Below the pieces are notes generated by a model. It did no database searches, had not been told where the DNA came from, and saw only the letters and a list, made by a program, of their open reading frames with translations. Of a DNA stretch of 41,820 nucleotides, positions 14,284-32,098 are shown piece after piece (within the stretch, counting starts at the first letter, position 1; each line of letters opens with the position of its first letter). The position numbers and the translations under genes are program-made. Origin of the DNA: a virus. Location: the IMG/VR virus record IMGVR_UViG_3300037132_000361, positions 1 to 41,820 of that record; one strand, given 5' to 3'.

Positions 14284-14343
14284 GCGGGCGAGAGTGCCGC
14301 GCCCCGCGCGCGCGCACAACGCGGGCAGTACCAGCTAAGACGC
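14284..14343 (-). repeat. 60-nt start-abutting element, copy A
   Basis: Minus-strand order: the 23-bp core (14321-14343, containing GTCTTAGCTGGTACTGCCCG), a GC-rich variable part, then GGCACTCTCGCCCGC directly before the GTG of the next gene. CGCGG/CCGCG can pair around the loop before the start codon. It fills the 67-nt gap between the large secreted protein and the downstream gene. It shares 31 contiguous bases with copy C around the core. Confidence 0.85.
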
Positions 14344-14350
14344 GCCGGCG

Positions 14351-16702
14351 CTAAGGCCGCACGGAGATTTCCGCGTTGCTGAAGCTGGGGTGGTTGAAAC
14401 TCCAGTCCAGAACGGAGAGCGTTTGCAGTGCGGGTAGAGTGGGAGCCTGCCATTGAATCTGCTCCTGCCCATAGTTCTGATTGTACCAACTGCCGTTGTC
14501 ATAGTTGGTCGAGATGACGAGCGGGTTGATGTGGGTGACGGTCTGCATCAGGCGGCTGCTGGACGGCACGGCCCCGCCCAGCAGATCAACTGCGGTGATG
14601 GACAGGTTGGTGGTGGTGGCATCGGCATCGGCAGACCCCGCCAGCGTGAACGCTTCCGGCGTGGCGACCTTCTCGCTGACGATGTTGTTGGCGAGGATGG
14701 AACACACCCACTCACCACCATAGTCGCCATAGCCCAGCGTGAACCAGTTGGTCTGCGGCAGGATGGGCTGGGTGGGGAAGCTGGCGAATAACTCGGCGCG
14801 GGCGACGACGCCCGTGGGCTTGTAGATGGTCATGTCGAAGGAAGTCATCCACGCGCCGACAGCGAGGTTCGTCAGCTCGCCTTCCACCATCAGCCCCGCG
14901 AGATTCCAGCCGTAGTACCACTCCCAGTTCTGGAAAATCTGATGGTGGGTCATGTTGGGGCCGTAGCTGCTCACGAAGTAGGAGTCCACGGTGTTGGTGG
15001 CCCCGTAGAACCCAGCGTTAAGCGTCCAGTCATACCCCATGATGCCGTTGGTGATGTAGGCCGTCGTGCCAGCCACAAAGTCGGGCAGCGCGAAGGTTGG
15101 CGTGTTGGTGGTGGTGTGCGATGTGACGGGGTCGCCGCCATCAGGGATGTCCTGCCACCAGTAGTCCCACGCCGTAAGCGGCAGCGTCCATGAGTTGGTG
15201 ACGACGGTGGCGATGTGCTGTTCGCCCAGCGGAGAGCCCACCGTGAAGCGGAAGGCCCGCAGGCATTCGTACCGCTGCGCGAGCAGGTTGGAACTGAAGG
15301 CATTTTCCGACGCGCCGTAGACCCTGTCGCAGTTGGTGTAGACCACTTCCAGTTGCGCCCAGCGCACGCTATCCGGCTGGCCGTTGGTCTCGTCGCGGCT
15401 CCAGCCGTTGAAGCCGATGTCGGTCAGGCTGAAGAAGACGGCATCGGTCATGGCCCCATCCGACAGCAGCGCGTCCTCCACGATGTTGCTCCACGGGTAG
15501 CTGGCCCACGGCTTGGCATCCCACACCGCGCCCGTCAGGCTCAGGCTGACGACGGTGGGGAAGCTGGCCCCGTTGGTGATGTTGGTGTTGAAGGGACAGG
15601 TGACCACGAAGAACGGCGGGTGGTACGCGTTGGTCAGGAATTGCGACATGGGGATGGACTCGCGGGGGACAGGCCCGCCGATGCCGTTGGTCGGATTGGG
15701 GAGCCACGCGAGCTGGAAGTGCTGCACGATGGAGGTGACAGCCCCGACAACGTTGGTCACCCAGTAGGTGTTGGTCGGCGCGGCCTGCCAGATACCCATA
15801 GGCCAAGTGCGTTTGACGGGCTGCTGCCAGTAGAGCTTGCTATCGCAGATATAGTTGGTGTGCGGCGGGTCAAAGTTGTTGGTGATGTATTGAGTGGTGA
15901 GGTTGCCGGACACCCAGCCCTCCACGATCTCCTGCGTGACAAGGTTGGTGTTGGCCCAGAGGAAGTTGGTGCCTGCGCCCGTGAAGTCGATCAGGTTGCT
16001 CAGTGTGAGCAGCGGCGGCTGGTTGTAGGAGTGGCCCACCCTGACCCAGTTGGAGACATAGAGCGCGGTGCCGTCCGCGTTGGTGGCCGGACTGATGGGG
16101 TAGGCTCCCACCAGATAGGGCTGGGTGATCTGCCATTCCCAGTTGGTCTTCAGGCCGCTGGACAACCAGCCCGCGTAGGATCCGTTGGTGGAGTAGCTGG
16201 GGTCGAGCCAAGTGTTCCCATAGAACGTCCCCACGCCCCGAATGAACCCGTCAATGTCTGTCAGCACCGCCTTTGTCAGGTAGCTGGGTGGACCGTTGGA
16301 CATCCCGAAGTGCCACACGAAATTGGTGGCGAGGATGTTGGTGACGGTCATGACGTAGTTCGTCCAGAACGCGATGACGGGGTTGGTGGCAGCATCGAAG
16401 TTGGTTACGGCATAGATGTCGCCATCCGGCGCGAGCGCGTTGCTGAAGGTCTGGCGATGCTCGGTGACGACCGCCGTGAAATACTGGGTGGGCCACGCGG
16501 CGGGGTCGATGTTGGAAACGGCGGCGCGCTCTTGCAGGGCGGCGTATAGCTCGGTGATGGTCAGGAGGTGCGGCGCGGCATTGGTGCCGACGAGTGGATA
16601 GGCGTGCCATTGCGACAGGGCCGGAGCCGACAGCAGCACCAGCGTCACGACCACCAGCAGGGAGCAGGCCGCGCCCTCCAGCGTTGTCATGCGGCGGCTC
16701 AC
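14351..16702 (-). CDS. Large secreted-type tail protein, Thr/Asn-rich
   Basis: A 783-aa protein if the GTG at 16702 (GTGA overlap with the upstream gene) is used; ATG 16690 is the alternative. A signal peptide is evident (ACSLLVVVTLVLLSAPALSQ). The mature chain is rich in Trp, Tyr, Thr and Asn with many short beta strands and TNY/TNG turns, and has no recognised enzymatic motif. The very large size, position between tail-tip genes and the collagen-like protein, and aromatic-rich surface composition suggest a receptor-contact or carbohydrate-binding tail protein. Export by Sec would be unusual for a virion protein, so a lysogen surface protein is an alternative. Confidence 0.6.
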   Translation of the reverse strand: MSRRMTTLEGAACSLLVVVTLVLLSAPALSQWHAYPLVGTNAAPHLLTITELYAALQERAAVSNIDPAAWPTQYFTAVVTEHRQTFSNALAPDGDIYAVTNFDAATNPVIAFWTNYVMTVTNILATNFVWHFGMSNGPPSYLTKAVLTDIDGFIRGVGTFYGNTWLDPSYSTNGSYAGWLSSGLKTNWEWQITQPYLVGAYPISPATNADGTALYVSNWVRVGHSYNQPPLLTLSNLIDFTGAGTNFLWANTNLVTQEIVEGWVSGNLTTQYITNNFDPPHTNYICDSKLYWQQPVKRTWPMGIWQAAPTNTYWVTNVVGAVTSIVQHFQLAWLPNPTNGIGGPVPRESIPMSQFLTNAYHPPFFVVTCPFNTNITNGASFPTVVSLSLTGAVWDAKPWASYPWSNIVEDALLSDGAMTDAVFFSLTDIGFNGWSRDETNGQPDSVRWAQLEVVYTNCDRVYGASENAFSSNLLAQRYECLRAFRFTVGSPLGEQHIATVVTNSWTLPLTAWDYWWQDIPDGGDPVTSHTTTNTPTFALPDFVAGTTAYITNGIMGYDWTLNAGFYGATNTVDSYFVSSYGPNMTHHQIFQNWEWYYGWNLAGLMVEGELTNLAVGAWMTSFDMTIYKPTGVVARAELFASFPTQPILPQTNWFTLGYGDYGGEWVCSILANNIVSEKVATPEAFTLAGSADADATTTNLSITAVDLLGGAVPSSSRLMQTVTHINPLVISTNYDNGSWYNQNYGQEQIQWQAPTLPALQTLSVLDWSFNHPSFSNAEISVRP

Positions 16703-31817: not shown

Positions 31818-32038
31818 TATTGCACCCCGTCATAGCAGCTCACGCCGACGCTGCGGTCCGGATCCTCCTCGGCCACGTAAAAGCTCCGCAGCTCCTGGAG
31901 CTGCTTGAGCAGCGCGGGGGCCGATTCGTTTTTGACCATCGTGGAGCCGAGGCGGTATTCGGTGATGACCTTGCCCGCCGCGATCTTGGAGACGACGTCG
32001 AGGATTGCCGCGTCGATTGTTGCCAACATGCTTGCCAT
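31817..32038 (-). CDS. gpW-like head-tail connector
   Basis: A 73-aa protein located between terminase-side genes and the portal, as lambda W is. The pattern of an N-terminal helix (ATIDAAILDVVSKIAAGK), a beta hairpin (VITEYRLGSTMVKN) and a second helix (APALLKQLQELRSFYVAEED) matches the gpW fold. The start ATG 32038 directly follows repeat copy D without a Shine-Dalgarno. The short acidic tail is more extended than lambda W. Confidence 0.7.
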   Translation of the reverse strand: MASMLATIDAAILDVVSKIAAGKVITEYRLGSTMVKNESAPALLKQLQELRSFYVAEEDPDRSVGVSCYDGVQ

Positions 32039-32098
32039 GCGCGGGAGAGTGCCGCGCCGCCCCCCCGCGCGCGAGGCGGGCAGTACCAGCTAAGACGC
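32039..32098 (-). repeat. 60-nt start-abutting element, copy D
   Basis: The core lies at 32076-32098; the 3' part GGCACTCTCCCGCGC abuts the ATG of the gpW-like gene. The GCGCGG/CCGCGC hairpin before the start codon is conserved with copy B, and 56 of 60 positions match it. The element begins 11 nt downstream of the stop of the preceding small gene. Confidence 0.85.

Follow-up and report, generated by a model that had tools for sequence, protein, structure and literature searches.

The window analysed here is the whole 41,820-base IMG/VR virus sequence, which is classed as linear in IMG/VR and has a G+C content of 64%. Judged from the proteins it encodes, the record is a tailed phage; it is unclassified, its minus strand carries nearly all of the genes, and its virion proteins have distant relatives only (identity ≤~30%). 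The genes that matter for what follows are listed below, together with their positions relative to four copies, A to D, of a repeated element.

1-1518, serine recombinase gene
12392 onward, collagen-repeat tail fibre gene
13648..14283, minus strand, 211-aa gene downstream of copy A; the collagen-repeat tail fibre gene is next
18977..19333, minus strand, 118-aa gene of the tail region, downstream of copy B
27536-28492, major head protein gene
28990..30084, minus strand, head maturation protease gene (PHROG 3244, E 4e-16), downstream of copy C
30171..31817, minus strand, lambda-family portal protein gene (Pfam PF05136, E 7e-45), upstream of copy C
31817..32038, minus strand, 73-aa small protein gene directly before the portal gene, downstream of copy D
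34643-34978, minus strand, gene located between the terminase gene and copy D, for a proline-rich protein of 111 aa whose C terminus carries a zinc ribbon (CPFC...CVGC)
35007-37058, gpA-type terminase gene
within the record, ParB-like protein gene (protein family match)

Family searches assigned no function to the 211-aa gene, and profile searches matched no family to the 118-aa gene; the 73-aa gene corresponds to a small gene at the same place in relatives. Elsewhere on the minus strand, genes for a papain-family protease and a PLD-like domain protein are adjacent (8731-10202), and a methyltransferase gene is paired with a ParB-like gene at 38519-41276. At least 80 viral contigs with differing virion genes carry this pair at ~57% identity, which on that sequence comparison makes it a cassette common to different phages. 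The region upstream of the serine recombinase gene contains a perfect 26-bp inverted repeat (1990-2015 and 2189-2214) whose arms are 173 nt apart.

The sequence GTCTTAGCTGGTACTGCCCG occurs exactly four times in the record, always on the minus strand and always as an exact match (14322-14341, 19372-19391, 30158-30177 and 32077-32096). Allowing up to three mismatches disclosed no further copies in the record, and 100 shuffled sequences gave 0 matches; the first-pass annotation of this DNA, which had reported four copies at these places, was thus right. The full invariant core is 23 nt long (GCGTCTTAGCTGGTACTGCCCGC) and is identical at 23/23 positions in every pairwise comparison, the longest match to it elsewhere in the record being 9 nt. 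The copies are laid out as follows.

14284..14343, minus strand, copy A: core 14321-14343, 18-nt spacer, second block GCGCGGCACTCTCGCCCGC abutting GTG 14283
19334..19393, minus strand, copy B: core 19371-19393, spacer, second block GCGCGGCAATCTCCCGCGC abutting ATG 19333
30121..30179, minus strand, copy C: core 30157-30179, spacer one base shorter, tentative second block ACGCGGCGTATAAGCCCGC
32039..32098, minus strand, copy D: core 32076-32098, spacer, second block GCGCGGCACTCTCCCGCGC abutting ATG 32038

As the annotation had also claimed, the core is identical throughout and its distance to the start codon is exactly 60 nt in A (GTG), B (ATG) and D (ATG). All four copies lie in intergenic gaps of the virion region, on the transcribed strand; from ~12 to ~37 kb the record has nine gaps of 45 nt or longer, and four of these hold a copy. 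None of the copies precedes the terminase genes. The portal stop codon is a TAG inside the core of copy C (30171-30173). That the copies share a strand is true, as had been pointed out, but carries little weight because nearly all genes are on that strand. An oriented repeated element linked to gene starts is supported; it is real and unusual, and probably has a function. A coding reading, with an open frame running from the core TAG to the start, was rejected, as most of the differences between B and D change amino acids.

Copies A, B and D share the structure of one bipartite unit, in which an invariant core is followed by a variable spacer of fixed length and a conserved second block. Compared in register, the 18-nt spacers match at 9/18 (A/B), 11/18 (A/D) and 15/18 (B/D) positions, and the 19-nt second blocks at 16/19, 17/19 and 18/19, respectively. 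Between A and D, mismatches thus number 0/23 in the core, 2/19 in the second block and 7/18 in the spacer. B and D are close copies, 56/60 identical as first reported, and this pair says less because its near-identity continues upstream: in the flank before the core B matches D at 8/10 positions, while A matches B at 2/10 and D at 1/10. The contrast between conserved blocks and spacer gave Fisher p values of 0.002 for A/D and 0.0004 for A/B, the pairs not being independent. Such unevenness points to selection acting on two separate blocks as against copying and decay, and a spacer fixed in length but free in sequence between two conserved blocks is the pattern typical of a bipartite DNA site.

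These comparisons bear directly on the alternative that the element is a repeat without function that recombination or duplication has carried from one gene border to another. Its restriction to this record and the location of every copy in a gap are consistent with such spread, as are the 31 nt shared by A and C around the core and the likeness of B and D over nearly all 60 nt plus the upstream flank, which resembles recent copying. We nevertheless consider this alternative unlikely. Conservation of the blocks (core 0/23, second block 2-3/19 mismatches) and not of the spacer (7-9/18; p 0.0004-0.002) disfavours plain hitchhiking or passive copying, which the annotation had offered as its second reading, and the 60-nt distance to the start has been kept despite an altered spacer, in a single orientation throughout.

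Copy C had been described as a core only, which is probably wrong. Some 24 nt past its core stands CGCGGC-GTATAA-GCCCGC, the equivalent in A being CGCGGC-ACTCTC-GCCCGC when the two are aligned with a 1-nt gap; the block matches the second block of A at 12/19 positions, a score that ~4% of random record positions reach when a small shift is allowed. Copy C thus probably carries a weak second block shifted by 1 nt. This block contains TATAAG, found in copy C only and not in strict register, and ends ~36-37 nt before ATG 30084. The leader that follows is unstructured and A-rich, with an AGGA.

Searches for the element elsewhere gave no exact core in viral contigs, no 19-mer of the core in GTDB genomes, and only chance or coding matches to the core in INPHARED phages and plasmids (blastn). 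A 16-mer was found in 12 viral contigs, once in each, and both of the two matches inspected were inside coding genes. Other candidates were discarded: all five matches to a gapped 13-mer plus CGCGGC were due to chance, and a match to the element on a Sinorhizobium plasmid falls within an open reading frame. Relatives gathered by terminase, portal, 620-aa tail protein, methyltransferase and capsid were all distant, with virion proteins again at ≤~30%, and their ~240 loci contained no core at up to four mismatches. The element is thus unique within the viral contigs, GTDB genomes, annotated phages, plasmids and relatives searched.

Among the relatives, a 15-mer repeated at least three times was present in one locus only, L143, and corresponds to type II hammerhead ribozymes (RF02276), as follows.

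916-984, minus strand, hammerhead in L143, E 2e-4
1524-1590, minus strand, hammerhead in L143, E 2e-6
1981-2048, minus strand, hammerhead in L143, E 8e-4

The second and third of these stand directly before small minus-strand genes. The presence of three such ribozymes in gaps before small genes of a distant relative, and of repeated ribozymes of this kind in prophages (PMC3088659), raises the idea that the element is an RNA that cleaves itself, or is processed in some other way, so as to yield leaderless messages. Both are compact repeated elements in phage gaps before starts (PMC3088659; L143), but the element here lacks a hammerhead core and any Rfam match, no Rfam ribozyme was found at E values up to 5 in the copies searched, and no common fold with covariation emerged. 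RNA processing is accordingly a very improbable explanation.

The annotation had stressed that the starts beside the element lack a Shine-Dalgarno sequence. This is clear for B (-1.7 kcal/mol) and D (-2.5 to -2.7 kcal/mol), the median of 50 starts in the record being -5.6, but it is not unusual enough to be telling, since, counted from the weakest of the 50, these sites rank only 9th and 12th. Weak sites are not rare in the record, so that a missing one cannot carry the argument. The contact between element and start codon likewise stands in part. In gene B, codon 14 is itself an in-frame ATG (19294), and its Shine-Dalgarno energy is -6.8 kcal/mol, against -1.7 at 19333; the latter may therefore not be the true start, which makes contact of block and start uncertain in B. 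For gene D, five relatives encode homologous small proteins ahead of their portal genes, with N-termini that lie within a few residues of Met1, and ATG 32038 is a credible start on this comparison. No better start was found downstream of GTG 14283 in gene A.

A hairpin had also been proposed just before these start codons. It is present in the sequence, as GCGCGG-N7-CCGCGC directly before the ATG in B and D and in a related form in A, and, of the regions preceding 50 starts, those at A, B and D rank as the three most stable. The second halves of the element are 84-89% G+C, however, and this stability is due to G+C: dinucleotide shuffles fold equally well, with z values of +1.4, -0.55 and +0.37 for A, B and D and thus no excess stability. 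Evaluated as a translational operator hairpin, the element gave z values from -0.8 to +1.4 and one compensatory pair among n=4 copies. That pair flanks the core and, among the helices possible in all four copies, is the one that changes on both sides (C-G to G-C); the RNAalifold covariation term across the copies was 0. Rfam covariance models gave nothing meaningful in the window or at copies A, C and D. An RNA reading is weakened by these results, the covariation test having little power on four copies.

The RNA reading in question is that the element acts in the message, where a hairpin would hide the start until a phage protein binds core or stem, like Com on mom in phage Mu. Supporting this possibility, the hairpin is found before the ATG in B and D and in related form in A, these are the three strongest structures at the 50 starts, there is one compensatory change (C-G to G-C) beside the core, and the gene at 34643-34978 specifies a small zinc-ribbon protein. 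The structure at a translation start and the zinc-ribbon protein both recall com/mom (PMC6483171). On the other hand, Mu has a single target as opposed to four here, no Com homologue was found by family search, and RNA structure here is no greater than composition gives. The compensatory pair is single, another predicted pair is broken by a B-to-D change, ~37 nt separate copy C from its start, there is no matching Rfam family, and the zinc-ribbon protein is a weak-match lead, not an identified Com. Control by an RNA-binding protein, one of the two functions first suggested, is therefore possible but rather doubtful.

The other suggested function, a nut-like antitermination site made up of a boxA-like TCTTA and a hairpin, fared worse, and we regard it as highly unlikely. 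TCTTA is indeed common to boxA and the core, but this amounts to only 5/8 letters in register, no boxB-like hairpin adjoins it, and antitermination does not account for contact with the start codon. No N or Q homologue was recognised in family searches of the phage proteins, and none of the lambda nut features (boxA, boxB hairpin, N-like protein) was found in full. In its favour, the genes annotated in phi3LM21, a distant relative, include one for an antitermination protein of the NusG type, and a strong terminator-like hairpin lies inside the structural region (27049-27024). This hairpin (27024-27049, minus strand) has 11 G-C pairs followed by CTTTGTTTTG and occupies the gap that follows the genes of the major head protein group; as it resembles an intrinsic terminator, the downstream tail genes would need read-through or another promoter.

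Taken together, the results make a phage-specific control cassette the most likely reading, probably of promoter type and of a kind already known in other phages. We tentatively favour, as quite possible though short of probable, a late promoter-type cassette specific to this phage, from which mRNA would be leaderless at A and D and leadered at C. The element would be an oriented, bipartite cis-regulatory cassette of ~60 bp ahead of four virion gene groups, its 23-bp core serving as recognition site for a phage or host transcription factor and its second block sitting at the transcription start. In A, D and perhaps B, where the start codon abuts the block, the mRNA would be leaderless, which would keep the GC-rich structure out of the message; at copy C, the mRNA would begin inside the gap and retain a leader. 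Sequence comparison establishes the repeat with its placement, the two conserved blocks and the start of gene D, while a promoter role, a factor and the sites of transcription start are inferred. A message starting at the end of the block would explain both the missing Shine-Dalgarno and the strong adjacent structure at A and D, and also the ordinary leader at C, whose start is further downstream. Ordinary leadered translation is hard to reconcile with starts that lie beside the strongest structures and have no good Shine-Dalgarno.

An invariant core in four copies, absent from the rest of the record, fits this promoter-type reading, as does copy C, which lies away from its start and has TATAAG in its second block ahead of an unstructured leader with AGGA. 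Several observations count against it: a sigma-70 scan of 13500-33400 (-35/-10 hexamers, 16-18 nt spacing) found no promoter at the copies, the -10 candidates in A, B and D (CACTCT and CAATCT) are poor, the spacer is among the most stable DNA of the record, and protein family searches recognised no late activator, sigma factor or RNA polymerase. The terminase genes also have no copy ahead of them, TATAAG is confined to copy C, and gene B may begin at codon 14. The zinc-ribbon protein at 34643-34978 is a possible candidate factor, by a weak match, whether the element is read as DNA or as RNA. A stronger version, in which an undescribed bipartite promoter with an unrecognised phage factor makes several late virion genes leaderless by starting transcription on the start codon, seems to us quite unlikely.

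Two known promoter types were considered and rejected: a sigma-54 site, because its GG-N9-GC spacing is one base short, and a single-subunit phage RNA polymerase promoter, because no such polymerase gene was found. By eye, 8/13 letters agree with a ParB (KorB-like) operator. A 47-aa open reading frame (32110-32253, minus strand) matches 46/80 phage loci over 27-39 residues, the identity reaching 74%. No Shine-Dalgarno precedes its start, and 6 nt before the ATG stands TAGACA-16 nt-TACAGA, possibly a leaderless promoter.

In phages P2 and Mu there are four late promoters, with an activator site upstream of a poor promoter. The four copies before head and tail gene groups are reminiscent of that arrangement, but the window has no Ogr/Delta or Mu C homologue and no known activator motif.

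The nearest described kind, similar in layout and by sequence not a member, is the SAS/ESAS of cluster K mycobacteriophages. These repeats stand at start codons in larger gaps, in one orientation, and sometimes overlap the upstream stop; the ESAS is an upstream extended part with predicted promoters, and the role of SAS/ESAS is unproven (PMC3203893, PMC11373665, PMC12699233). In mycobacteriophage Adephagia, the ESAS is a 46-47-bp intergenic motif in seven copies that contains a predicted promoter, a precedent that supports the promoter-type reading here (PMC11373665). Shared features are short one-orientation repeats in larger intergenic gaps that end within a few bases of starts (here 4/4 in gaps on the transcribed strand, three abutting a predicted start), a two-part design of comparable size (ESAS ~46-50 bp) in which the stop of the upstream gene can fall, and absence from other phages. 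The two families differ in having no sequence similarity, in copy number (11-19 for SAS, four here) and in location, SAS/ESAS being in the non-structural half of the genome and the present element in the structural half. The 13-bp SAS, GGGATAGGAGCCC, carries AGGAG and lies within ~3-9 bp of starts, whereas the second block here is GCGCGGCACTCTCSCSCGC-like, with neither AGGAG nor another Shine-Dalgarno. In the ESAS, SigA-like -35/-10 hexamers accompany a 17-bp imperfect inverted repeat, whereas the core here is asymmetric by inspection.

What the element would mean depends on which of these readings holds. A spread repeat would be of little wider interest, whereas an element acting on RNA would be a multi-gene translational switch, rare among double-stranded DNA phages. 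Should it prove to be a promoter firing at the start codon, the phage would provide a second start-associated cassette, unrelated to that of cluster K and placed on virion genes; the four copies, differing in spacer and in distance to the start, would then be a natural experiment on start-associated repeats.
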